Source of the DNA: Paracoccus albus
GTDB taxonomy: Bacteria > Pseudomonadota > Alphaproteobacteria > Rhodobacterales > Rhodobacteraceae
Reading direction: 5' to 3'
Length of the DNA stretch: 64,000 bases
NCBI RefSeq assembly: GCF_027913035.1
Contig: NZ_CP115775.1
Location: forward strand, 3,254,812 to 3,318,811
Positions 7,958 to 18,455 of the stretch are shown here, piece by piece. The notes beneath the pieces are model-generated. The model was not told where the DNA came from. It saw only the letters and a program-made list of their open reading frames with translations, and did not search any database. Position numbers and translations under genes: made by a program. The first letter of the stretch is position 1, and each line of letters opens with the position of its first letter.

Positions 7958-8638
7958 ATGACGGTCTGGAACATTCACTACCTCAACGCCCGCAAGACGC
8001 TGAACAGCGTCATGCCAGAAACACGCGCCGCCGCAAGAGAGGCCGTCGCCGCGGTGGAAGAGCATGTCGAACTCCCGCGTTTTGATCTGGTCATTCGCGC
8101 GGGTGAAGAGGTCGTGCAGGGTTGGGCGGTCGGAGGCTATGCGCCGGGGCCGGGACATATTCAGATCACGCTGGAGCCAGAGCGTTTTTCGCCCGAACCC
8201 TTTATCCGCACGCTGGTCCACGAATTGCATCATCTGATCCGCTGGGACGGTCCGGGTTATGGTAAGTCACTGGGCGAAGCTCTGGTCAGCGAAGGGCTTG
8301 CCGGCCATTTTGTATTGCAGGTTCTGGGTGGCCAGCCTGATCCGTGGGATGCGGTCAATCCGTCAGAGGGGCTGACACGGCGGGCATCGAATGAGTGGTC
8401 GCGCCTGGGCTATGATCATGCAGAGTGGTTTTTCGGCACCGGCAAGATCCGCAGGTGGTCAGGCTATGGTCTGGGGCATCGGCTGATTGCCGAATACCTG
8501 TCGCAGAATCCGTCCGAGGATGCTGTCAGTCTGGCCAAGGCCCCCGTCGATCGGTTCAGGGGTGCCATGCGCCAGCTTGCAAAGACCGACGCAGATTCCG
8601 AACCTGAACAGCCGGAGACAGAGACGAATGCAGGCTGA
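7958..8638 (+). CDS. DUF2268-type putative zinc-dependent protease
   Basis: The 226-residue cytoplasmic protein carries the gluzincin signature VHELHH (His88, Glu89, His92). A plausible third ligand is Glu112 in VSEGLAGHF. The flanking sequence GHIQITLEPERF before the motif is characteristic of the DUF2268 family of predicted Zn-dependent proteases. The physiological substrate is unknown. The last 20 residues are acidic and probably disordered. ATG 7958 follows a GAAAGGA ribosome-binding site. A terminator overlaps the 3' end of the gene. Confidence 0.8.
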   Translation: MTVWNIHYLNARKTLNSVMPETRAAAREAVAAVEEHVELPRFDLVIRAGEEVVQGWAVGGYAPGPGHIQITLEPERFSPEPFIRTLVHELHHLIRWDGPGYGKSLGEALVSEGLAGHFVLQVLGGQPDPWDAVNPSEGLTRRASNEWSRLGYDHAEWFFGTGKIRRWSGYGLGHRLIAEYLSQNPSEDAVSLAKAPVDRFRGAMRQLAKTDADSEPEQPETETNAG

Positions 8639-8682
8639 CCGGACGCAGCGACCCGACGGCCCGCCATTCGGTCAGCCTTTTT
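8632..8682 (+). terminator. rho-independent terminator downstream of the DUF2268 gene
   Basis: A perfect 10-bp stem (AGGCTGACCG at 8632-8641, CGGTCAGCCT at 8669-8678) encloses a 27-base loop and is followed by TTTTT on the plus strand. Its right arm covers the last codons of the opposing Asd-like gene. Confidence 0.7.
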
Positions 8683-9694
8683 GCAGGTGGTCGCGGCCCA
8701 GCAGTTCAGCAATCTGAACAAGGTTCAGCGCCGAGCCTTTGCGCAGGCTGTCGCAGACGATCCACAGGTTCAGCCCGTTCTCAACCGTGGCATCTTGCCG
8801 GATGCGGCTGACAAAGGTTGCGAAGTCGCCGGCGCTTTCGACCGGCGTGACGTAACCACCGTCCTCGTTCTTGTCGATGACCAGCAGGCCGGGAGACTCT
8901 CGCAGAATGTCCCGCGCCTCGTCCTCATCCAGAAAATCCTCGAACTCGACATTGACCGATTCAGCATCGCCGACAAAGACAGGCACGCGAACGCAAGTGA
9001 CCGACACACGGATCGAGGGGTCGAGTATCTTCTTGATCTCTGCCTTGATCTGCCATTCGGCGCGGCTGTTGCCGTCCTCCATGAAGTCCCCGACCTGAGG
9101 GATCACGTTAAAGGCCATCTGGCGCGGAAAGACCGAAGGTTCGACTTCCTGACCGGGGACATACATGCCCTTGGTCTGGTTCCACAGCTCATCCATTCCC
9201 TTCTTGCCCGCCGACATGACCGACTGATAGGTCGAGGCGACGACGCGACGGATGCGGGCGCGATCATGCAGCGGTTTCAACGCGACGACCAGCTCAGCCG
9301 TGGCGGCATCCGGGCTGGCGATGATCATGCGTTCACGATAGCCCTCAATCACTGCCGGGTTCACCTCTGGCACGATCAGAGGAACCGCGGGGTCCATGCG
9401 GAAAGCCGATGAGGCGTCGATCACGACGCAGCCCTGATCGGTTGCGAGATGCGCATATTTGCGCGCATCGTCCGCATCCATTGCAAAAAGGGCGATATCA
9501 TATCCGCCGAAATCGAAGCTTTCGATGTCGCGGGATTTCAGCGTGTCGTCGCCAAAGCTGATCTCGGTCCCCAGTGAACGGCGCGGGCCAAGCGCTGCTA
9601 CTTCGTCGGCGGGAAACTCTCGCTCTGCCAGAATGTTCAGGATTTCGCGGCCCACATCGGTCGTGGCGCCGGCAACTGCAATTCTATAACCCAT
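8672..9694 (-). CDS. aspartate-semialdehyde dehydrogenase homologue lacking catalytic residues (probable pseudoenzyme)
   Basis: The 340-residue protein aligns along its whole length with alphaproteobacterial Asd: nucleotide-binding start GATTDVGREILNILAER, VPLIVPEVNP, VVALKPLHDRA, AFNVIPQ, and the C-terminal LRKGSALN. The active site is altered. The motif normally read as NPNCST is SPDAAT (127-132), so the catalytic cysteine is Ala130. The usual PVFVGHSE is PVFVGDAE, so the catalytic histidine is Asp243. The phosphate-binding Arg99 and Gln157 remain. Normal dehydrogenase chemistry should be impossible, and a functional asd must lie elsewhere. There is no frameshift, and ATG 9694 has a good AAAGGAG site. 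Confidence 0.85.
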   Translation of the reverse strand: MGYRIAVAGATTDVGREILNILAEREFPADEVAALGPRRSLGTEISFGDDTLKSRDIESFDFGGYDIALFAMDADDARKYAHLATDQGCVVIDASSAFRMDPAVPLIVPEVNPAVIEGYRERMIIASPDAATAELVVALKPLHDRARIRRVVASTYQSVMSAGKKGMDELWNQTKGMYVPGQEVEPSVFPRQMAFNVIPQVGDFMEDGNSRAEWQIKAEIKKILDPSIRVSVTCVRVPVFVGDAESVNVEFEDFLDEDEARDILRESPGLLVIDKNEDGGYVTPVESAGDFATFVSRIRQDATVENGLNLWIVCDSLRKGSALNLVQIAELLGRDHLQKG

Positions 9695-9804
9695 CAGGAA
9701 AACTCCTTTGCTTGGGGCGCGATATAGGTGCAGGGTTCGTGTAGGGGAAGTGTAATTCCCTTATTCTTCAGCGACAGGACGGTGCAAGCGTGCCGATGCC
9801 GGGC

Positions 9805-10500
9805 TCAGGCCCCAAGAAACTGACGGCGGGGCTCTCCGGCGATCGAAAACGCTTCGGCATCCCCATCCCATACGACCTGACCGCGTGACATCAGCGTCAC
9901 GCGATCCGAAATCGCAGTGGCAAAGCTGACATTCTGTTCCACCAGAAGCGTAGTCATTCCGGCTGATTTCAATTCAACCAACGCATTTCGCAAGATGTGC
10001 AGCATCTGAACCGACAGCCCCTCCGCCGGTTCATCCAGCATCAGCAACCGGGGCGAGGTCATCAGAGCCCGCCCGATTGCAAGCATCTGCTGCTCTCCGC
10101 CCGACAGCGCGCCGGCGAGGGCATTCAGCCGCGTGCCCAGATTGGGAAACAGCGCTATGACGCGGTTCACATTCCACTCGCCAGAACCGATACGACCGGC
10201 GAGCGTCAGGTTTTCGCGAACGGACAGTGTTGCAAAGACCTCGCGCCCCTCGGGGACATAGCCGATACCCGCCCGCGCGATCTTCGTCGTCGACCAGTGC
10301 GAGATATCCTGTCCGGTAAAGGTCACGCTGCCGCGCTGCGCGGGCACTATACCCATGATGCGCCGCAAGGCCGTGGTCTTCCCGGCGCCGTTCCGCCCCA
10401 GAAGCGCGTGGACCTTTCCGTCAGTAACCAGCATGCACAAGCCATGCAGCACGGGTGTGCTGCCATATCCCGCAGTGAGGCCAGAAAGCTCAAGCATCAT
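9805..10500 (-). CDS. livF: branched-chain-amino-acid-type ABC transporter ATPase (LivF)
   Basis: The 231-residue ATPase of the HAAT class has Walker A GRNGAGKT at 35-42, a canonical signature LSGGEQQ at 132-138, Walker B LLMLDEP at 152-158, and a switch-region VEQN in place of the usual histidine, as is normal for LivF. It is the last gene of a five-gene operon on the minus strand and overlaps the end of livG by 11 bp. It pairs with LivG to power the LivHM channel. ATG occurs twice in tandem at the start; the first is given here. Confidence 0.92.
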   Translation of the reverse strand: MMLELSGLTAGYGSTPVLHGLCMLVTDGKVHALLGRNGAGKTTALRRIMGIVPAQRGSVTFTGQDISHWSTTKIARAGIGYVPEGREVFATLSVRENLTLAGRIGSGEWNVNRVIALFPNLGTRLNALAGALSGGEQQMLAIGRALMTSPRLLMLDEPAEGLSVQMLHILRNALVELKSAGMTTLLVEQNVSFATAISDRVTLMSRGQVVWDGDAEAFSIAGEPRRQFLGA

Positions 10501-11197
10501 AGATGGCTTTCAGCGCCGGGCGGGCACCGGATGGGCCTCCGTCAAATGCGATGCGGCCTGCATCCAGTACGACAATGCGTTCAGCGACAGAGAACGCAAG
10601 ATCCAGGTCATGTTCGATCACAATGATCGTCAGGTCCCGCGGCAGGTTTGCGATAAGGTCATGGATCTGTCGTGCCCCGCCCGGACCGAAGCCAGAGGCC
10701 GGTTCATCCAGCAGCAGCACATCCGGGCGTCCCGCAAGCGCCAGCCCAAGGTCCAGCCGGCGTCTATTGCCGTGATCGATGTCCCGGGCTGGTCGTTCCA
10801 GATCAACCAATCCCACCTGTTCCGCAATGTCACGGGCCGCACGGCGCAACGCGGGGTCGCGCAAGGGATCGCCGCCAATGCTTCGCTGCTCCAGCCCGGC
10901 AATGATCAGGTTCTCTTCCAGCGTAAAACGCTCAAACAAGGTTGCTTGCTGAAAGCTGCGCCCCAGCCCTGCACGGGCCCGGACATGCGGCGGATCGTGG
11001 GTGATGTCGTTGTCCTTCAACACGATCTTTCCGGCTTCGGGTGTTATTTCGCCTGCGATCAATCGAAACAATGTGGTCTTGCCCGCGCCGTTGGGACCAA
11101 GGATGACCAGGCGTTCGCCTCGCATTACCGACAATGTCAGGTCGCGAATGACCTCAACGCCGCCAAAGCTCTTGTGCAACCCCTTAACCGAAAGCAT
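10490..11197 (-). CDS. livG: branched-chain-amino-acid-type ABC transporter ATPase (LivG) with an atypical signature motif
   Basis: The 235-residue ATPase has Walker A GPNGAGKT (34-41), Walker B LLLDEP (161-166) and switch His196 in VIEHD. The ABC signature, usually LSxGE or LSGGQ, reads IDHGNRR at 140-146 and so lacks the conserved serine; the partner LivF keeps a normal one. The start at 11197 (MLSVKGLHKSF) gives the usual LivG N-terminus and overlaps livM by 14 bp. A longer in-frame start at 11239 is possible but would lie deeper inside livM. The atypical signature may mean one composite ATP site is weakened. Confidence 0.88.
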   Translation of the reverse strand: MLSVKGLHKSFGGVEVIRDLTLSVMRGERLVILGPNGAGKTTLFRLIAGEITPEAGKIVLKDNDITHDPPHVRARAGLGRSFQQATLFERFTLEENLIIAGLEQRSIGGDPLRDPALRRAARDIAEQVGLVDLERPARDIDHGNRRRLDLGLALAGRPDVLLLDEPASGFGPGGARQIHDLIANLPRDLTIIVIEHDLDLAFSVAERIVVLDAGRIAFDGGPSGARPALKAIYDA

Positions 11198-12122
11198 GCC
11201 TGTACCAGCGTTCGAACTGACCATAGATGCCGTGACCACCCGCCAGCACCACCGCGATCAGGACAGCCCCGATGATCAGGTGCCAATGATCCGTCCAACC
11301 GGCTGACCAGTATTTCAGCGTCACGAAGACGGTCGCGCCAAGGGCGGGTCCAACCAACGTTCCAATCCCACCCAGGATCAACACGACCAACACCTCTCCG
11401 GATGCGGTCCACACCATCATTGCAGGAGAGATGAATTGCATATGCTGCGCCGCAAGCACCCCCGCAAACCCGGCAAGGGCCGAGGAGGCGGCAAAGCCAA
11501 TGGTTCTGACGCGGATCAGAGATAAACCGAGCGACGCGGCGCGTTGCGGGTTTTCGTGAACAGCTTCGAAGGTGCGGCCAAGGGCGCTGCGCAGAAACAG
11601 GGTTGCGAGGCCAAAGACGATCACGATCACCGCGATAGCGTAGAGCGCAAAGCTGAGCGGGTCGGTCAGGTCGCTGAACGGCAGGCTTGGACGCATGATA
11701 CCCCCCAGCCCATTGTCGCCACCCAGCCAGTCGGCGCTGAACGTCAGCGCCCAGATCATCTGACCAAAGGCCAGCGTCGCCATGATGAAATAGACGCCCT
11801 GCGTCCGCCCTGTGACCACCCCGATCAGCGCACCTGTCAACCCGGCTGCCGCGATGCCCGATGCGGCGGCGGGCCAGGGCGTCATCCCGTTCTGACCCGC
11901 CAAGGCATAGACATATGCGCCCACGCCCATGATCGCGCCGTGAGCCAGTGAAACCATGCCACCAAACCCGGCCGCAACATCCAATGCAATCGCAAGCACC
12001 GCAAGAATGGCGATTTCGGCAACGATCTCGCGCGCGAAGAAGCCACCAAATCCTGCGTAAAGCGCCAGTGAGATGACCAGAAGCACAAATGTGGCAAGGC
12101 GAAGGGGATTCAGCCTGAACAT
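11184..12122 (-). CDS. livM: branched-chain-amino-acid-type ABC transporter permease (LivM)
   Basis: The 312-residue protein is very hydrophobic, with about nine to ten predicted membrane segments beginning at residue 8. It carries the LivM landmarks VSLAHGAIMGVGAY, GRTQGVYFIMATLAFGQMIW and the coupling region GRTFEAVHENPQRAASLGL. The start MFRLNPLRL at 12122 overlaps the livH stop in a TGATG arrangement, which supports it over longer in-frame starts. Together with LivH it forms the channel of the importer. Confidence 0.92.
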   Translation of the reverse strand: MFRLNPLRLATFVLLVISLALYAGFGGFFAREIVAEIAILAVLAIALDVAAGFGGMVSLAHGAIMGVGAYVYALAGQNGMTPWPAAASGIAAAGLTGALIGVVTGRTQGVYFIMATLAFGQMIWALTFSADWLGGDNGLGGIMRPSLPFSDLTDPLSFALYAIAVIVIVFGLATLFLRSALGRTFEAVHENPQRAASLGLSLIRVRTIGFAASSALAGFAGVLAAQHMQFISPAMMVWTASGEVLVVLILGGIGTLVGPALGATVFVTLKYWSAGWTDHWHLIIGAVLIAVVLAGGHGIYGQFERWYRHAFG

Positions 12123-12988
12123 CAGTGCGACACCGCGCCTTTGAACAAGCCCTGCGGGCGCCAGATCAGTGCTGCGGCGAGTGCCGCGTAAATCAGGACG
12201 GAGCTGGCAGCGGGCCAGATTGCCGCGCCGAATACCTCGATAGCGGCCACGACAAGCGCACCTGCCGCCGTGCCGGAAATGCTGCCCATGCCGCCGATCA
12301 CGGTTACGATCAGGGCGGGAACAAGTGCGCTGACCGCCATGCCTGCACTGGCAGAGGTGATCGGGGCCGCAACCACACCGCCAAGCCCCGCCAGTGCGGC
12401 GCCAAGCGTAAAGACCCAAAGGAACAGCCGGTCTGTATCAATCCCGATGGCCCTTGCCATCGTCCTGTTCTCAACAGACGCACGCAGTGCAGCACCAAGG
12501 CCGGTCCGGTTCACCCCGAGCCACAGGAGCAAAGAAACCACGGCACCAATTGCGATGACAAACAGACGGTACAGCGGATAGCTGACCGACAGCATGTCGA
12601 GCCGCCCGCGCAGCGCAGAAGGGATATCGATCGACAACGGAACATCGCCCCACAGGATGCGCACGATCTCTGTTGCGATAAAGACCAGCCCAAAGCTGAC
12701 CAGAACCTGCGGCATCGGCCCCAATCGTGCGACCCGGCCCAGCAGGCCCAGGTAAAGGATCAGCCCGATTGCCCCGACTGTCACAGGGGCCAGGAACAGC
12801 GCCGCCCAGAAACCTGCCTGCACGCTTAACGTGACGCCGATAAAGGCCCCGAGCATGTAAAGCGCCCCATGCGCAAGGTTCACAAATCCCATCAGCCCGA
12901 AACTGACGGACAGCCCGGCCGCGATCAGGAACAGCAGCGCAGCATATTGCAGCGTATTCAGCGTCTGCAATATCCAGAAGGTCGTCAT
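12122..12988 (-). CDS. livH: branched-chain-amino-acid-type ABC transporter permease (LivH)
   Basis: The 288-residue inner-membrane protein has about eight membrane segments. It shows the LivH landmarks GLMGFVNLAHGALYMLGAF, the coupling loop GAALRASVENRTMARAIGID, and GGMGSISGTAAGALVVA. It begins directly after the stop of the binding-protein gene (TAAATG) and overlaps the livM start, so translational coupling through the operon is likely. Confidence 0.92.
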   Translation of the reverse strand: MTTFWILQTLNTLQYAALLFLIAAGLSVSFGLMGFVNLAHGALYMLGAFIGVTLSVQAGFWAALFLAPVTVGAIGLILYLGLLGRVARLGPMPQVLVSFGLVFIATEIVRILWGDVPLSIDIPSALRGRLDMLSVSYPLYRLFVIAIGAVVSLLLWLGVNRTGLGAALRASVENRTMARAIGIDTDRLFLWVFTLGAALAGLGGVVAAPITSASAGMAVSALVPALIVTVIGGMGSISGTAAGALVVAAIEVFGAAIWPAASSVLIYAALAAALIWRPQGLFKGAVSH

Positions 12989-14134
12989 TTACGGCATCGC
13001 GCAACCGTTGGGCGCATCCTGAACGGCCTCGACGGTGTCCAGCAGCTTGTGGGTCATGCCCTCGTCGCCTTCGACGGTCTCGAACACATAGACATTCTGC
13101 ACGATATTGTTGGTCGCCGGGTCAATCTTCAGCGGCCCACGTGGGCCGGTATAGGATACATTGGGCAAAGCATTCGCCAATGCCTCACGTCCCTCGACAC
13201 CTTCTTCCAGAGCTCCAAGCAGAAGGCGACCCGCGTCATAGCCTGCGACCACATATTCAGATGGCAGCGTATCGGGATGTTCCGCCTGATAGGCCGCGAC
13301 AAATGTGTCATTTTCCGGCGATTCCAGCGATGGAAGATAATGCAGCGCCCCGATCACGCCAGTGGCGGCCTTCCCCTGCTCTCTCAGGTAAAGCGGCGCG
13401 GTCAGGAAGCCGACGGAATAAAGCGGCATCTCTTCGGCGAGGCCGAAGCTGTCATACTGCCGGACAAAGCTGATCGCATCTGCGCCGCCGTAAAAAACAT
13501 ACAGTGCTTCAGCACCCGATGCCTGTGCCTTGGCCAGATACGGGCCAAAATCTTCTGTCTTGCCGAAAGGGGTGAACTCTCCTCCGACTATATCGCCGCC
13601 CGCCGCCTCGAACGCGGCAGAGAAGGCGCCGATCATCTGCTGGCCTGCCGCATAATCCGGGGCAAGCGTGTAGACGGAGCTTATCCCCTGCGCTGCCATC
13701 CATTCGCCCATCGGCCGGTTAAGCTGATCGTTCGAAAAGCTGACCCGCGTGATATAGGCAGAGCAGTCCTTTCCCGTTGCGTCGCTGTTACCCGCATTGG
13801 CGACGATCAGCGGCACCTGTGACTGATGCACAAAGTTGCGCACCGCGCCCAGCACGGCAGAGGAGACCACGCCCACCAGAACATCAGCCTCATCCTGCAT
13901 AACCAGCTTGCGCGCCATCGTCAGGCCGGTCTGTGGGTCGGCCTCGGTATCGGCCTCGACAATCTCGATATCGCTGCGCCCGCTTTCGGCAATGGCCATG
14001 CGAAAGCCGTCTTCGATGTCCTGACCGAGTGCTGCGTAATTGCCCGATGCGGGCAGCAACAGGCCGACCTTCGTATCTGCCGCCGCAGGAAGGGCGACTG
14101 CGGCCAGCAGGCAGGCGATACAGTATCTGTTCAT
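12989..14134 (-). CDS. periplasmic substrate-binding protein of the branched-chain-amino-acid ABC class
   Basis: The 381-residue protein belongs to the type I periplasmic binding-protein family used by HAAT importers. A signal peptide (MNRYCIACLLAAVALPAAAD) precedes the first lobe, which starts VGLLLPASGNYAALGQ. The start ATG at 14134 is chosen because it places the signal peptide at the N-terminus and follows a GAAGGA element; upstream in-frame codons add a non-hydrophobic leader. It is the first gene of the operon (binding protein, livH, livM, livG, livF). The ligand could be branched-chain amino acids, urea or aromatic acids and cannot be decided here. Confidence 0.88.
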   Translation of the reverse strand: MNRYCIACLLAAVALPAAADTKVGLLLPASGNYAALGQDIEDGFRMAIAESGRSDIEIVEADTEADPQTGLTMARKLVMQDEADVLVGVVSSAVLGAVRNFVHQSQVPLIVANAGNSDATGKDCSAYITRVSFSNDQLNRPMGEWMAAQGISSVYTLAPDYAAGQQMIGAFSAAFEAAGGDIVGGEFTPFGKTEDFGPYLAKAQASGAEALYVFYGGADAISFVRQYDSFGLAEEMPLYSVGFLTAPLYLREQGKAATGVIGALHYLPSLESPENDTFVAAYQAEHPDTLPSEYVVAGYDAGRLLLGALEEGVEGREALANALPNVSYTGPRGPLKIDPATNNIVQNVYVFETVEGDEGMTHKLLDTVEAVQDAPNGCAMP

Positions 14135-14209
14135 GAGGGGGTCCTTCGTGCAGTCCTCAACCCGGTGATATTGCGAGGATTCACGCCTGTCCATGGCGAA
14201 GGGCTGTAG

Positions 14210-14482
14210 TTTTGGCTATCTTCCGGGCGGTTCCAGAAACCACATTGCCGTTTCTTCGTCTGGGATCAGCCCATTGATCGGCGCGCCCTGGCAGGGCTTC
14301 AGGGCGCCGATGCGCTGTCAGCTGCCGTGCGCAGCGCCCTGTCGGTTGAAGACACGCTGGACCGCCTTCTCCGCCGCCAAGCTGGTCCGGATGGCCGAAA
14401 ACGAACCAGACGCGCGCGCGCGGCCTTACCAGACAAACCCGATCAGTCGGGCAACTTCCGTGCACGGATCAGCGTGTGCTGA
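14210..14482 (+). pseudogene. coding-like open stretch without a usable start (possible gene remnant)
   Basis: Between the binding-protein gene and the Fur-type gene, a plus-strand frame is open for 90 codons with codon use like the neighbouring genes. It includes CRFFVWDQPIDRRALAG and a following basic stretch LRRQAGPDGRKRTRRAR. There is no ATG; the first GTG is at 14327 and lacks a ribosome-binding site. The end overlaps the 3' part of the Fur gene on the other strand. It may be the tail of a decayed gene. I do not recognise the family. Confidence 0.25.
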
Positions 14483-14862
14483 CTGACGATTTCATAGCCC
14501 AGACGTTCCGCCAGTTCAGCGCGAAGCCGGTTGATCTCATCGCTCGCCAGCTCGATCATCTCGCCGGTTTCGACATCGACAAGGTGGTCATGCTCGGCCG
14601 CGGGCGAAATCTCGTAGCGGGCGGGTTCGTTTTCCAGCGACAGCTTGCGGATCAGCCCGGCCTCTTCCAAAGCTGACAGCGTCCGATAGACGGTCGCAAG
14701 CGACATGGAATCGTCCAGCCCTCTGGCGCGTGAAAGCAGTTCGTCCGCATTGGGGTGGTCCGCCGCCTCCATCAGAACAGACATCAGCGCCATGCGCTGC
14801 TGGGTGACACGCAGCCCGGCCTCTCGCAGGGCCTTTGCAAAATCGGTCGTCTCTGCGCTCAT
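14443..14862 (-). CDS. mur: Fur-family metalloregulator, probably Mur (manganese-responsive)
   Basis: The 139-residue protein is a Fur-family repressor. The winged helix contains LRVTQQRMALMSVLM and MSLATVYRTLSALEEAGLI, followed by the metal-binding segment AEHDHLVDVETGEMIE. It lacks the CxxC pairs that bind structural zinc in classical Fur and Zur. This is typical of the alphaproteobacterial Mur/Fur branch, which senses Mn(II) or Fe(II). It is transcribed divergently from sitABCD, with two palindromic boxes between them, so repression of manganese uptake is the likely job. The choice of Mur over Fur is an inference from context. Confidence 0.8.
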   Translation of the reverse strand: MSAETTDFAKALREAGLRVTQQRMALMSVLMEAADHPNADELLSRARGLDDSMSLATVYRTLSALEEAGLIRKLSLENEPARYEISPAAEHDHLVDVETGEMIELASDEINRLRAELAERLGYEIVSQHTLIRARKLPD

Positions 14863-14918
14863 CAGCGTGGCCCTTTGCTGTGTCGTTCCGGTCTAGCGTG
14901 AACTCGTCCTCCTGACAA

Positions 14919-14973
14919 GCAAATGCGAGCCATTTGCATTTAGACTTGACTATTGCGAATGAATTGCATTTAC
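14919..14973. promoter_or_regulatory. putative Mur/Fur boxes and promoter of sitABCD
   Basis: A perfect palindrome GCAAATG-N5-CATTTGC spans 14919-14937. A second, imperfect box lies at about 14953-14973 (AATG-N5-CATT core at 14958-14970). A -35-like TTGACT at 14946-14951 lies between the boxes, so a repressor bound here would block transcription of sitA. The sites resemble AT-rich Mur-responsive sequences of alphaproteobacteria. Confidence 0.65.
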
Positions 14974-14996
14974 AGCAATGAGGAGGTGATGGTGCA

Positions 14997-15908
14997 GTGA
15001 TGGGCAGTTCAGTCAAGAGAGCGGTAGCGTTGGGTCTTGTGCTTGGGGCAGGGCCGGCAGCCGCACAAGAAGACCGGATGAAGGTGGTCACGACCTTCAC
15101 CGTTCTGGCCGATATGGCGCAGCAAGTGGCAGGCGATGCCGCCGATGTCGTGTCGATCACGAAAGCAGGCGCGGATATTCACAGCTATGAGCCGACGCCG
15201 CGCGATTTCGTCCGCACTCAAGGCGCCGACCTGATCCTGCGCAACGGTATGAATCTGGAAATCTGGTTCGAACAGTTCCTGTCCAATCTGGGTGACCTGC
15301 CTTCAGTGACGCTGACCGAAGGGATCACGCCGATTCCGGTCGCGGCCGGTTCCTATCAGGGAATGCCGAACCCGCATGCCTGGATGAGCCTGTCGAACGC
15401 GATGATCTATATCGACAATATCGCCGCCGCATTCGCCACACATGATCCGAAGAACGCAGACGTTTATGGTGCGAATGCCGAAGCCTATAAGGCCCAGCTT
15501 GCCGAAGCGATATCACCATTGCGCGAAACGCTGGGGGCATTGCCTGAAAACCACCGCTGGCTGGTGACCTGCGAGGGCGCCTTTTCCTATCTTGCAGAAG
15601 ATTACGGGCTGAATGAGCTTTACCTCTGGCCGATGAATGCCGACCGGATGGGCACGCCGCAACAGATCCGATCCGTTATTGACGGGGTTCGCGATCACAA
15701 CGTCCCGACAGTGTTTTGCGAAAGCACCGTCAACACCGCGCCCGCCCGCCAGATCGCCCGCGAAACCGGCGCGTCTTATGGGGGGGAGCTGTATGTCGAC
15801 AGCCTGTCCGAATCTGACGGCCCGGTGCCGTCCTATCTGGAACTCTTGCGCAAGACGACCGGAACCATCGCGGCCGGTCTGGGCGGCGCAAAAGGAGCAA
15901 CGCAATGA
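14997..15908 (+). CDS. sitA: manganese/iron (or zinc) ABC transporter substrate-binding protein SitA
   Basis: The 303-residue cluster A-I metal-binding protein has a signal peptide ending in AAAQE. Its four ligands match the PsaA/SitA pattern: His62 in [10 protein letters not shown], His127 in NPHAWMS, Glu193 in [14 protein letters not shown] and Asp268 in YVDSLS. There is no His-rich loop of the ZnuA type, which favours Mn or Fe over Zn. The start is GTG 14997 or the adjacent ATG 15000, both served by AGGAGG at 14981-14986; GTG has the better spacing. It is the first gene of sitABCD. Confidence 0.9.
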
Positions 15909-16771
15909 CCGCTGAACACGCCGACGATGGCATCCGCGCCGATGACGTCACCGTCACCTATCGCAACGGCCTGACGGCATTGCGCCATGCCAGCTTTGCC
16001 GTTCCGCGCGGCACGGTGACAGCCCTTGTCGGCGTGAACGGTGCTGGCAAATCAACGCTGTTCAAGGCGATCATGGGCTTTGTCCCCCTTGCGGGCGGTG
16101 ACATCAGCCTTCTGGGGATGAGCGTGCCAGAGGCTTTGCGCAAGAACCTTGTCGCCTATGTTCCCCAGTCCGAGGAAGTCGACTGGGCCTTCCCTGTGCT
16201 GGTCGAGGATGTGGTGATGATGGGCCGCTATGGAAAGATGAATTTCCTGCGCATCCCCACCAAATCCGATCATCAGGCGGTCGAGGCGGCACTTGCCCGC
16301 GTGAATATGCTGGACTACCGCCACCGCCAGATCGGTGAACTGTCGGGCGGCCAGAAAAAGCGCGTCTTTCTGGCGCGCGCATTGGCGCAGGACGGGCAGG
16401 TCATTCTGCTGGATGAGCCGTTCACCGGCGTCGATGTGAAAACAGAAGAACAGATCATCCGCCTTCTGGGCGAACTGCGCGACGAAGGCCGTGTGATGCT
16501 CGTTTCGACCCACAACCTCGGCTCCGTCCCGGAATTCTGTGACCGTGTCGTGCTGGTCAAGGGAACCGTGCTGGCCTATGGCCTGACCGAGACAACCTTT
16601 ACCCGTAAAAACCTGGAGGAAGCCTTCGGCGGCGTGCTGCGCCACTTTACACTCGGCGGCACCGATCTGCATGACGACGATGACGCCCGCAGCATCACCA
16701 TCTTCTCGGATGACGAGCGCCCGCTTGTCCATTATGGCGAGGAAATGAAGCGCCGTGAGGATGCGAAATGA
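15905..16771 (+). CDS. sitB: manganese/iron ABC transporter ATP-binding protein SitB
   Basis: The 288-residue ATPase has Walker A GVNGAGKS (43-50), signature LSGGQKKR (146-153) and Walker B ILLDEP (167-172). Switch His is in VSTHNLGSV. The C-terminal 40 residues form a histidine- and aspartate-rich tail (LHDDDDARS) seen in SitB-like proteins. The start overlaps the sitA stop by 4 bp, which indicates translational coupling. Confidence 0.92.
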
Positions 16772-17625
16772 GCATCCTTCTGGACCCGTTCACTTATGGC
16801 TTCATGCTCAGCGCCATGTCGGTCGCGGCCCTTGTCGGCGCGGTCTGCGCCTTCCTGTCCTGTTTCCTGATGCTGAAAGGCTGGTCGCTGATCGGCGATG
16901 CGCTGTCCCATTCGGTCGTGCCGGGTGTGGCGGGCGCCTATCTGCTGGGCTTTCCTCTGGCGGTTGGTGCCTTTCTGTCCGGCGGGCTGGCCGCAGCCGC
17001 CATGATGTTCCTGTCCGAACGATCCGGGCTGAAAGTTGATGTGGTGATCGGGCTGATATTCACCTCTTTCTTCGGGCTTGGCCTGTTCCTTGTGTCCGTC
17101 AACCCGATTGCCGTGGACCTGCAAACCATCACCATGGGCAATATCCTGACAATATCCGCCTCAGAGACACGGCAGCTTGCCATCATCGGTGTCGTCTCCA
17201 TCGCCATATTGCTGCTGAAATGGCGCGATCTGATGGTGGTGTTCTTCGACGAAAGCCACGCCCGGTCCATTGGCCTTCGCGCCGGGATGCTGAAGGCGCT
17301 GTTCTTCACGCTCCTGTCAGCATGCATCGTCGCGGCCATGCAGACGGTCGGCGCGTTTCTGGTCATCGCCCTTGTCGTGACGCCGGGTGCGACCGCCTAT
17401 CTGCTTTGCGACCGCTTCGGGCGGCTGATCGTCACCGCCGTCGCCATCGGGGCCATCACCAGCTTTATCGGCGCCTATATCAGCTTCTTCCTGAACGGCG
17501 CGACCGGCGGCGTCATCGTGGTCTTTCAGACCCTGATCTTTCTCGCCGCCTTCATCTTCGCACCGAAACACGGCATGCTCGCCGCCCGCCGCCGCGCGGC
17601 TCAGGCGCTGAGGGCCGCGCCATGA
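16768..17625 (+). CDS. sitC: manganese/iron ABC transporter permease SitC
   Basis: The 285-residue ABC-3 family permease has about eight membrane segments. It shows the family landmarks [20 protein letters not shown] near the N-terminus and [19 protein letters not shown] later. It overlaps sitB and sitD by 4 bp on each side (ATGA junctions). It is a paralogue of SitD, and the two together form the channel. Confidence 0.93.
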
Positions 17626-18455
17626 TCGACACCCTTCTTCAGCCCTTTACCTTCCCCTTCATGCGCGACGCCTTCCTGATCTGTCTGCTGGTCGCGCCGC
17701 CAACAGCCCTGCTGTCCTGTTTTCTGGTGCTGAAAGGCTGGGCGCTGATGGGCGATGCAGTCAGCCACGCCGTCCTGCCGGGGATCGTGCTGGCCTATAT
17801 GCTGGGCCTGCCCCTGATCATAGGAGCTTTCGCAGCGGGGATGCTGACCTCGCTTGCCACCGGCTATCTGTCCGAGAACAGCCGCATCAAGCAGGACACC
17901 GTCATGGGGGTCGTGTTTTCTGGCATGTTCGGGCTGGGCATCGTGATGTATGTTTCGATTCAGACGAATGTCGATCTGGATCATGTCCTTTTCGGAAACA
18001 TGTTGGGCATCGGTCCGGCCGATCTGCGCACCGCCGGCCTGATCTCTCTGATCGTCTGCGCCAGCCTGCTGCTGAAATGGAAAGACCTTATGCTGCACGC
18101 TTTCGACCCCGCGCAGGCAAAGGCATCCGGCCTGCCGGTCGGGCTGTTGCATTACGGGCTTCTTACCATCCTGTCACTGACCATCGTCGCCACGCTGTCG
18201 GCCACCGGCCTGATCCTCGCCGTAGGCCTGCTGATCGCACCCGGCGCGATAGCCTTCCTGATCGTCCGCCGCTTCGGCTGGATGCTGACCGTCGCCGTCA
18301 TCGTCAACCTGATCGGCATGTTGGGCGGCGTCTATGCCAGCTTTTTCCTCGACAGCTCCCCCGCCGCGACGATCATCCTCGTGCTGACGGCGATTTTTAT
18401 CGTGGCGTTCATCCGGCGCGTGACGATCAACAAGCGGCGGGTGGCGGCGGTTTGA
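17622..18455 (+). CDS. sitD: manganese/iron ABC transporter permease SitD
   Basis: The 277-residue second ABC-3 permease has LKGWALMGDAVSHAVLPGIV and GLILAVGLLIAPGAIAFLI. The start at 17622 ([13 protein letters not shown]) overlaps the sitC stop; the same frame is open much further upstream but lies inside sitC. A strong terminator begins within its last codons, ending the sitABCD transcript. Confidence 0.93.
   Translation: MIDTLLQPFTFPFMRDAFLICLLVAPPTALLSCFLVLKGWALMGDAVSHAVLPGIVLAYMLGLPLIIGAFAAGMLTSLATGYLSENSRIKQDTVMGVVFSGMFGLGIVMYVSIQTNVDLDHVLFGNMLGIGPADLRTAGLISLIVCASLLLKWKDLMLHAFDPAQAKASGLPVGLLHYGLLTILSLTIVATLSATGLILAVGLLIAPGAIAFLIVRRFGWMLTVAVIVNLIGMLGGVYASFFLDSSPAATIILVLTAIFIVAFIRRVTINKRRVAAV

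Follow-up and report, generated by a model that had tools for sequence, protein, structure and literature searches.

Aspartate-semialdehyde dehydrogenase (Asd) is essential in bacteria and has been described as a drug target. Two forms are relevant here, namely the asd_B type (TIGR01296/PRK14874; Vibrio cholerae Asd II, structure 2qz9) and the gamma type (TIGR01745), a distant homologue of the former. The asd_B-type fold is also that of Usg (USG-1), a protein with the catalytic cysteine lost, which is encoded in the order pdxB-usg-truA-dedA in Escherichia coli and represented by a structure from Pseudomonas aeruginosa (2hjs). For the Usg operon, PMC6358828 gives phenotypes and no molecular function. 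In this study, we analyzed an asd_B-type gene of Paracoccus albus located at 8672..9694 of a 64,000-nucleotide stretch of contig NZ_CP115775.1 (hereafter, the window), in which both catalytic residues, Cys130 and His243, are replaced. A literature search, mostly outside subscription journals, found no published account of an Asd pseudoenzyme in Paracoccus.

The open reading frame (ORF) starts with ATG, encodes 340 residues, and contains zero frameshifts; it lies on the minus strand, and the plus strand of the same interval is interrupted by stops. The deduced protein scored 364.7 bits against TIGR01296, above the cut-off of 324.2, and matched the two Asd domains of Pfam (PF02774, 1-184 of 184; PF01118, 1-119 of 121). 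The original prediction, made from the sequence alone, had described a full-length Asd alignment with an intact frame, Cys replaced by Ala130 and His by Asp243, and Arg99 and Gln157 still present, all of which was confirmed by residue reading. The loss proved to be wider than stated there, as Gly12, Asn129, Ser160, Gly161 (the latter two of the SGxG motif), Glu212, and Lys215 are replaced too. Among these, Asn129, Glu212, and Lys215 are substrate or phosphate contacts in working enzymes. In PMC3276109, SGxG is given as the nicotinamide motif, and Table 1 has the conserved Glu (position 212 here) binding the substrate amino group and lists a functional role for the conserved Lys (position 215 here). 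The substrate/phosphate set of Arg99, Glu212, Lys215, and Arg236 is incomplete in the window protein (both arginines present, E212A, K215Q), and neither of the motifs for nicotinamide adenine dinucleotide phosphate (NADP), GATGxVG and SGxG, is intact. The identity of sites 130 and 243 is backed by all 104 asd_B genes from Paracoccus genomes without a gamma-type Asd, as well as by alignment to the gamma-type Asd of the same genome. Judged by its residue content, the window protein would be catalytically dead, that is, a putative pseudoenzyme; reduction of beta-aspartyl phosphate would not be expected of it, and it probably does not bind NADP.

The second asd gene for which the original prediction had suggested a search is present. 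Two PF02774 genes (E 0.001) were identified in the genome (3.76 Mb, 99.99% complete), and the other one encodes a gamma-type Asd of 391 residues with GGNCTVS and RCHSQ, i.e., with the catalytic Cys and His, at a distance of 152 kb from the window gene. Absence of another Asd in the genome is therefore ruled out. The window protein did not match this gamma-type Asd at E 0.001, and working Paracoccus asd_B genes match gamma-type Asd only locally, at about 26-33%.

We surveyed 125 genomes of the genus, Paracoccus by protein names, 124 of which contained an asd_B gene, the lone miss being a 71% complete genome. Gamma-type Asd was found in 20 of the 125, with catalytic motifs in every case. All 104 asd_B genes in genomes without it encoded NPNCST, His243, Arg99, Gln157, and GATGNVG. 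The asd_B gene was also retained in all 20 gamma-carrying genomes; its product is intact in four of them (G020, G023, G064, and G120) and without either Cys or His in the other 16 (Fisher p 9e-17, kinship ignored). The double-loss genes are all full length (339-340 residues), and their occurrence in 16 genomes rules out a lone sequencing error or a lone damaged copy. Twelve of them, including that of the window, are of a D-type (Asp243, Arg99 kept) and four are of a Q-type (Gln243, Arg99 lost in 4/4). Within the D-type clade, Arg99, Gln157, and Asp243 were found in 12 of 12 genomes and Arg236 in 10 (lost in G044 and G029), while position 130 was Ala, Pro, Thr, or Gly (Ser in the related homologue P0008) and position 129 was Asp, Glu, or Ala. 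Two of the 104 genes from genomes without gamma-type Asd, those of G030 (L152) and G123 (L153), had a frame broken near residue 267; these breaks are probably assembly errors, as Asd is expected to be essential there. Genome G115 (L042, L067) carried a D-type asd_B, yet its gamma-type Asd grouped with those of Q-type genomes (99/99); it is 86% complete with 4% contamination and possibly chimeric.

The ratio of nonsynonymous to synonymous substitution rates (omega, dN/dS) was 0.080 for the D-type and 0.062 for the Q-type. The four intact genes beside gamma-type Asd gave 0.065, two sets of 12 ordinary asd_B genes 0.044 and 0.049, and the gamma-type Asd genes 0.062-0.077. Fixing omega at 1 fitted far worse (log-likelihoods of -7763.7 vs -6899.9 and -2715.2 vs -2500.7). 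The gene is real and maintained, and its function is testable in closely related species. The "maintained pseudoenzyme" of the original prediction was thus upheld by the second Asd with Cys and His, by the loss common to relatives, and by omega far below 1; regarding the two substitutions that it singled out, Asp243 is conserved and Ala130 is not. The 106 intact genes have 193 invariant positions, of which 113 are likewise unchanged across all 16 double-loss genes. The D-type clade is overall about twice as variable as the intact genes, with variabilities of 0.437 vs 0.003 at residues 127-137, 0.542 vs 0.103 at 159-166, and 0.346 vs 0.121 at 71-100. The corresponding values were 0.093 vs 0.118 at residues 167-200 and 0.100 vs 0.153 at 291-310, the latter stretch being also less variable than in either of two subsets of 12 working genes. 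Constraint in these two stretches appears about equal to that of working enzymes, not clearly stronger. The structure prediction modeled a single chain with block means of the predicted local distance difference test (pLDDT) of 47-69 across residues 161-210. Counts of residues lost in all genes differed weakly between universal Asd residues and other invariant ones (7/58 vs 6/135, p 0.064; 10/58 vs 9/135, p 0.034), and the excess at NADP and catalytic positions taken from the literature was matched in 5 of 339 circular shifts.

To the history of the loss, a set of 283 homologues from three protein searches (best hits rather than a random draw) contributed 22 sequences without Cys and/or His. 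Lys215 is kept by all 261 intact sequences of this set and by none of the 23 that are not intact (the window protein among them), and its loss may have been the first step. Three sequences represent intermediate states. P0014 (340 residues, 78% identical, on a 21.6 kb contig) is half-dead, with NPNCST kept but with Gln215, Gln236, and Asp243, and branches as the sister of the D-type genes as a group (98 in a quick tree); P0038 combines SPDAAT with a retained His and lies at the base of the Q-type (93, quick tree); P0095 has NPNSAT (Ser130) with His243, its sister being the G120 gene, which is intact (92, quick tree). Another non-intact sequence, P0091, has SPGASV and Asn243. P0009 (392 residues) is an Asd whose score is inflated by a repeat of about 52 residues within the protein, perhaps an assembly artefact. 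Since P0014 keeps Cys and P0038 keeps His, any common ancestor of the D- and Q-types still had both, which argues that they were lost separately, apparently His before Cys in one line and Cys before His in the other. At least two separate losses are thus supported, perhaps with a third in P0095. This argument depends on P0014 and P0038 and would be undone if the intermediates were chimeric or recombinant.

In a tree of RpoB and RpoC, the D-type genomes formed one clade with a support of 100 (10/10 with the marker; G033 and G115 were without it), while Q-type G018 and G028 were placed beside intact G020 (100) and Q-type G048 elsewhere. Forcing the three Q-type genomes together was marginally rejected (approximately unbiased test, p 0.04), which suggests that the Q-type gene may have moved between species. 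A branch with a support of 96 sets the D- and Q-type rows together apart from the rest, so that a common ancestor of both is possible, and whether the two lineages join differs between the protein and the codon tree from FastTree. The gamma-type Asd of the window genome grouped with those of G014, G062, G100, and G080 (100/99), whereas by RpoB and RpoC and by asd_B the genome itself belongs with G117 or with G069, G117, and G033; given this conflict, the gamma-type gene seems to have been exchanged.

In a wider sample, gamma-type Asd was found in 128 of 397 Pseudomonadota. We searched one genome for each of 75 gamma-carrying genera, Paracoccus excluded, for an asd_B-type gene at E 1e-30, and a separate one was identified in 24. 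Of these 24 copies, 22 are without the Cys, and 15 of the 22 are also without the His, the most distant alignments being unsure. Five of the 22 (G570, G574, G799, G828, and G752; among L305-L326, L335, and L336) have His243 replaced by Asp, like the window protein, with the same uncertainty for distant alignments. The gamma-type Asd of G470 was left out of the catalytic-motif reading.

Taken together, we infer, with somewhat better than even confidence, that the window gene encodes an Asd-fold protein without chemistry that is kept for a non-catalytic, protein-binding role. The gamma-type Asd would cover the essential reaction, leaving the native asd_B free to lose its chemistry, and the gene would not have been lost because it also serves a non-catalytic purpose. 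The protein may form a stable oligomer and, via its C-terminal domain, bind another protein, with residues 167-200 and 291-310 as candidate stretches. Hints of such a C-terminal role are the retention of asd_B in every gamma-carrying genome of the genus, the constraint outside the active site, and the like outcome in other lineages. The partner would most likely belong in or around the aspartate pathway, e.g., aspartokinase, the gamma-type Asd, or a regulator. We guess that Asp243 might close the empty site by a salt bridge; Asp goes with the kept Arg99 and Gln with the lost one. More tentatively, and with a somewhat greater chance of being wrong than right, asd_B of Pseudomonadota in general may have an unrecognised second, non-catalytic function, such that wherever gamma-type Asd takes over and asd_B stays, the catalytic residues are shed and the fold and C-terminal surface are kept. 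Usg and the Paracoccus proteins would then be independent outcomes, and the Paracoccus intermediates would capture the process under way, with the residues going in differing orders.

Several observations weigh against a non-catalytic binding role or the inference from association. Four gamma-carrying Paracoccus genomes retain an intact asd_B, and in other genera of the family, where gamma-type Asd was found in 3 of 392 genomes (E 1e-60), all three have asd_B with NPNCST and His. An independent-pairs test on the species tree yielded only two or three pairs, with which significance is unreachable. In 51 of the 75 gamma-carrying genera, an asd_B-type gene was not found at E 1e-30, and any role of this kind is therefore dispensable elsewhere. 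Ten of the 22 Cys-less copies belong to a single clade that includes E. coli Usg (100 in a quick tree, no bootstrap), corresponding to far fewer than 22 events. Counted by position, universal Asd residues were not clearly changed more often than other invariant ones (24/58 vs 53/135, Fisher p 0.87; in the second lineage, 13/58 vs 20/135, p 0.21). With the catalytic and substrate residues alone, 29 of 339 circular shifts were as high, a weak result, and a p of 0.003 for the active-site excess used a position list drawn up after the changes were known. The variability of residues 167-200 was below that of one 12-gene subset (0.186) and not of the other (0.086), and this mixed outcome lowers our confidence. 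Finally, retention of Arg99, Gln157, and mostly Arg236 in the clade makes ligand binding possible.

That last point belongs to a different explanation, a sensor of beta-aspartyl phosphate, aspartate semialdehyde, or a related anion through Arg99, Arg236, and Gln157, to which the fixed Asp243 would also be agreeable. We regard such a sensor as improbable, because Asn129, Glu212, and Lys215 are replaced, all Q-type proteins are without Arg99, and two clade members are without Arg236; the beta-aspartyl-phosphate binding proposed in the original prediction thus retains its Arg99 and Gln157 and is weakened by these replacements. Another possibility, raised in the original prediction as a regulator of true Asd, is that the protein acts directly on the gamma-type Asd as its regulator or subunit, either within a hetero-oligomer or allosterically. 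This would fit the occurrence of the loss in the genus only beside gamma-type Asd (16/20 vs 0/104), and six of the 22 Cys-less copies elsewhere lie directly downstream of the gamma match (same strand, gap of at most 221 bases), with two more within 1.6 kb. This explanation is unlikely, although less so than a sensor: the two genes are far apart in this genome, the placement of the gamma-type gene against species and asd_B suggests an exchanged partner, and usg and the gamma-type gene are not neighbours in the 10 genomes sampled from the E. coli Usg clade.

Strong constraint and the fixed Asp243 could also indicate an enzyme whose old site has acquired new chemistry, as the original prediction had considered. 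A new site would be expected to be fixed, and positions 129 and 130 vary within the clade (A, P, G, or T at 130, with S in a relative) while the NADP motifs drift, which makes this very improbable. Least credible is a dying gene that is still unbroken; the freely varying active-site segments and the doubled variability of the clade would suit it, but decay is ruled out by omega far below 1 (0.062-0.080), and 16 of 16 genes are full length and 11 of 12 have a promoter-like box.

The coordinates of the gene, its altered sites, and its surroundings are collected in the table. The sequence CTATAT occurs within 90 nucleotides upstream of 11 of the 12 D-type genes, compared with 24 of 102 genes from genomes without gamma-type Asd and 0.9% of shuffles, and the D-type gene thus appears to have its own promoter-like element; a sigma-70 scan gave zero excess over shuffles. 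Co-transcription with the upstream liv genes as the sole route of expression is unlikely, as the box is also present ahead of the gene in G080 and G081, in which an upstream liv gene was not found. The D-type neighbours were not matched beside other asd_B genes of the genus in the available flanks, many of which span only 300 bases. Among 49 genomes with long flanks, 24 share a different upstream gene, including three Q-type and two intact genes beside gamma-type Asd and no D-type gene; the absence of the D-type from this common context suggests that the D-type gene has moved. Additionally, within 14443-18455, a Fur-family regulator (14443-14862) adjoins what, from a reading of the ORFs, would be a metal-type ATP-binding cassette (ABC) transporter set.

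Table. Features of the asd_B locus, in window coordinates
Feature	Position	Strand	Basis or comparison
asd_B-type Asd homologue, 340 residues	8672..9694	minus	ORF, PF01118 and PF02774, TIGR01296, residue states, omega
NADP loop, residues 9-15: GATTDVG for GATGNVG	9650..9670	minus	GATGNVG in 104/104 genes without gamma-type Asd
SPDAAT (residues 127-132) for NPNCST: Cys130 to Ala, Asn129 to Asp	9299..9316	minus	NPNCST in 104/104 genes without gamma-type Asd
Residues 160-163: MSAG for SGAG (SGxG nicotinamide motif)	9206..9217	minus	residue alignment
Residues 167-200, candidate binding/oligomer surface	9095..9196	minus	27/34 columns invariant in clade; predicted helix 160-178; pLDDT block means 47-69 (low)
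Ala212 replacing conserved substrate-binding Glu	9059..9061	minus	residue alignment
Gln215 replacing conserved Lys	9050..9052	minus	replaced in 23/23 non-intact sequences, window included
Asp243 replacing catalytic His	8966..8968	minus	Asp in 12/12 genomes of the clade
AGGAG, probable ribosome-binding site	9703..9707	minus	sequence
CTATATC, minus-10-like box, 33 nucleotides before ATG	9721..9727	minus	sequence and clade comparison
Branched-chain amino acid type (liv-type) ABC transporter genes, upstream	9805..14194	minus	nearest one beside the gene in 9/12 clade genomes
DUF2268 predicted Zn protease, convergent neighbour	7958..8638	plus	10/12 clade genomes; one exception has 86 bases there

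Intact, half-dead, and dead asd_B genes in close relatives, beside a replacement enzyme, constitute a natural experiment that separates Asd chemistry from other roles, and the Paracoccus set would offer a handle on the function of Usg. Relatives with the same losses are labelled "aspartate-semialdehyde dehydrogenase" in public records; with such labels, and with the asd_B model passed, metabolic models would be misled.

Compared with asd_B-type Asd, such as the V. cholerae enzyme, the window protein is without Cys130, His243, Lys215, Glu212, Asn129, SGxG, and Gly12. With Usg it has in common the asd_B-type fold, the lost catalytic Cys (Ser in E. coli Usg), PD for PN at residues 128-129, and, in the genomes sampled, a gamma-type Asd in the same genome. 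The remaining residues differ in the reverse sense, as E. coli Usg keeps His243 and Glu212 and has lost Arg99, Gln157, and Arg236, and the loci differ also, the window gene adjoining the ABC transporter and DUF2268 genes and being unlinked to truA or to the gamma-type asd. The window protein scored below the NCBIfam cut-offs of PRK08040 (244.8 vs 273) and PRK05671 (257.5 vs 284), models which we take to stand for Usg. Working and dead Paracoccus asd_B group together in one clade (100), and E. coli Usg falls in another (100; both from the quick tree without bootstrap), and membership in the latter was rejected by this separate clade with its working members. These comparisons suggest that the window protein is similar in kind to Usg with a separate loss, and it may be a young parallel of the enterobacterial Usg.
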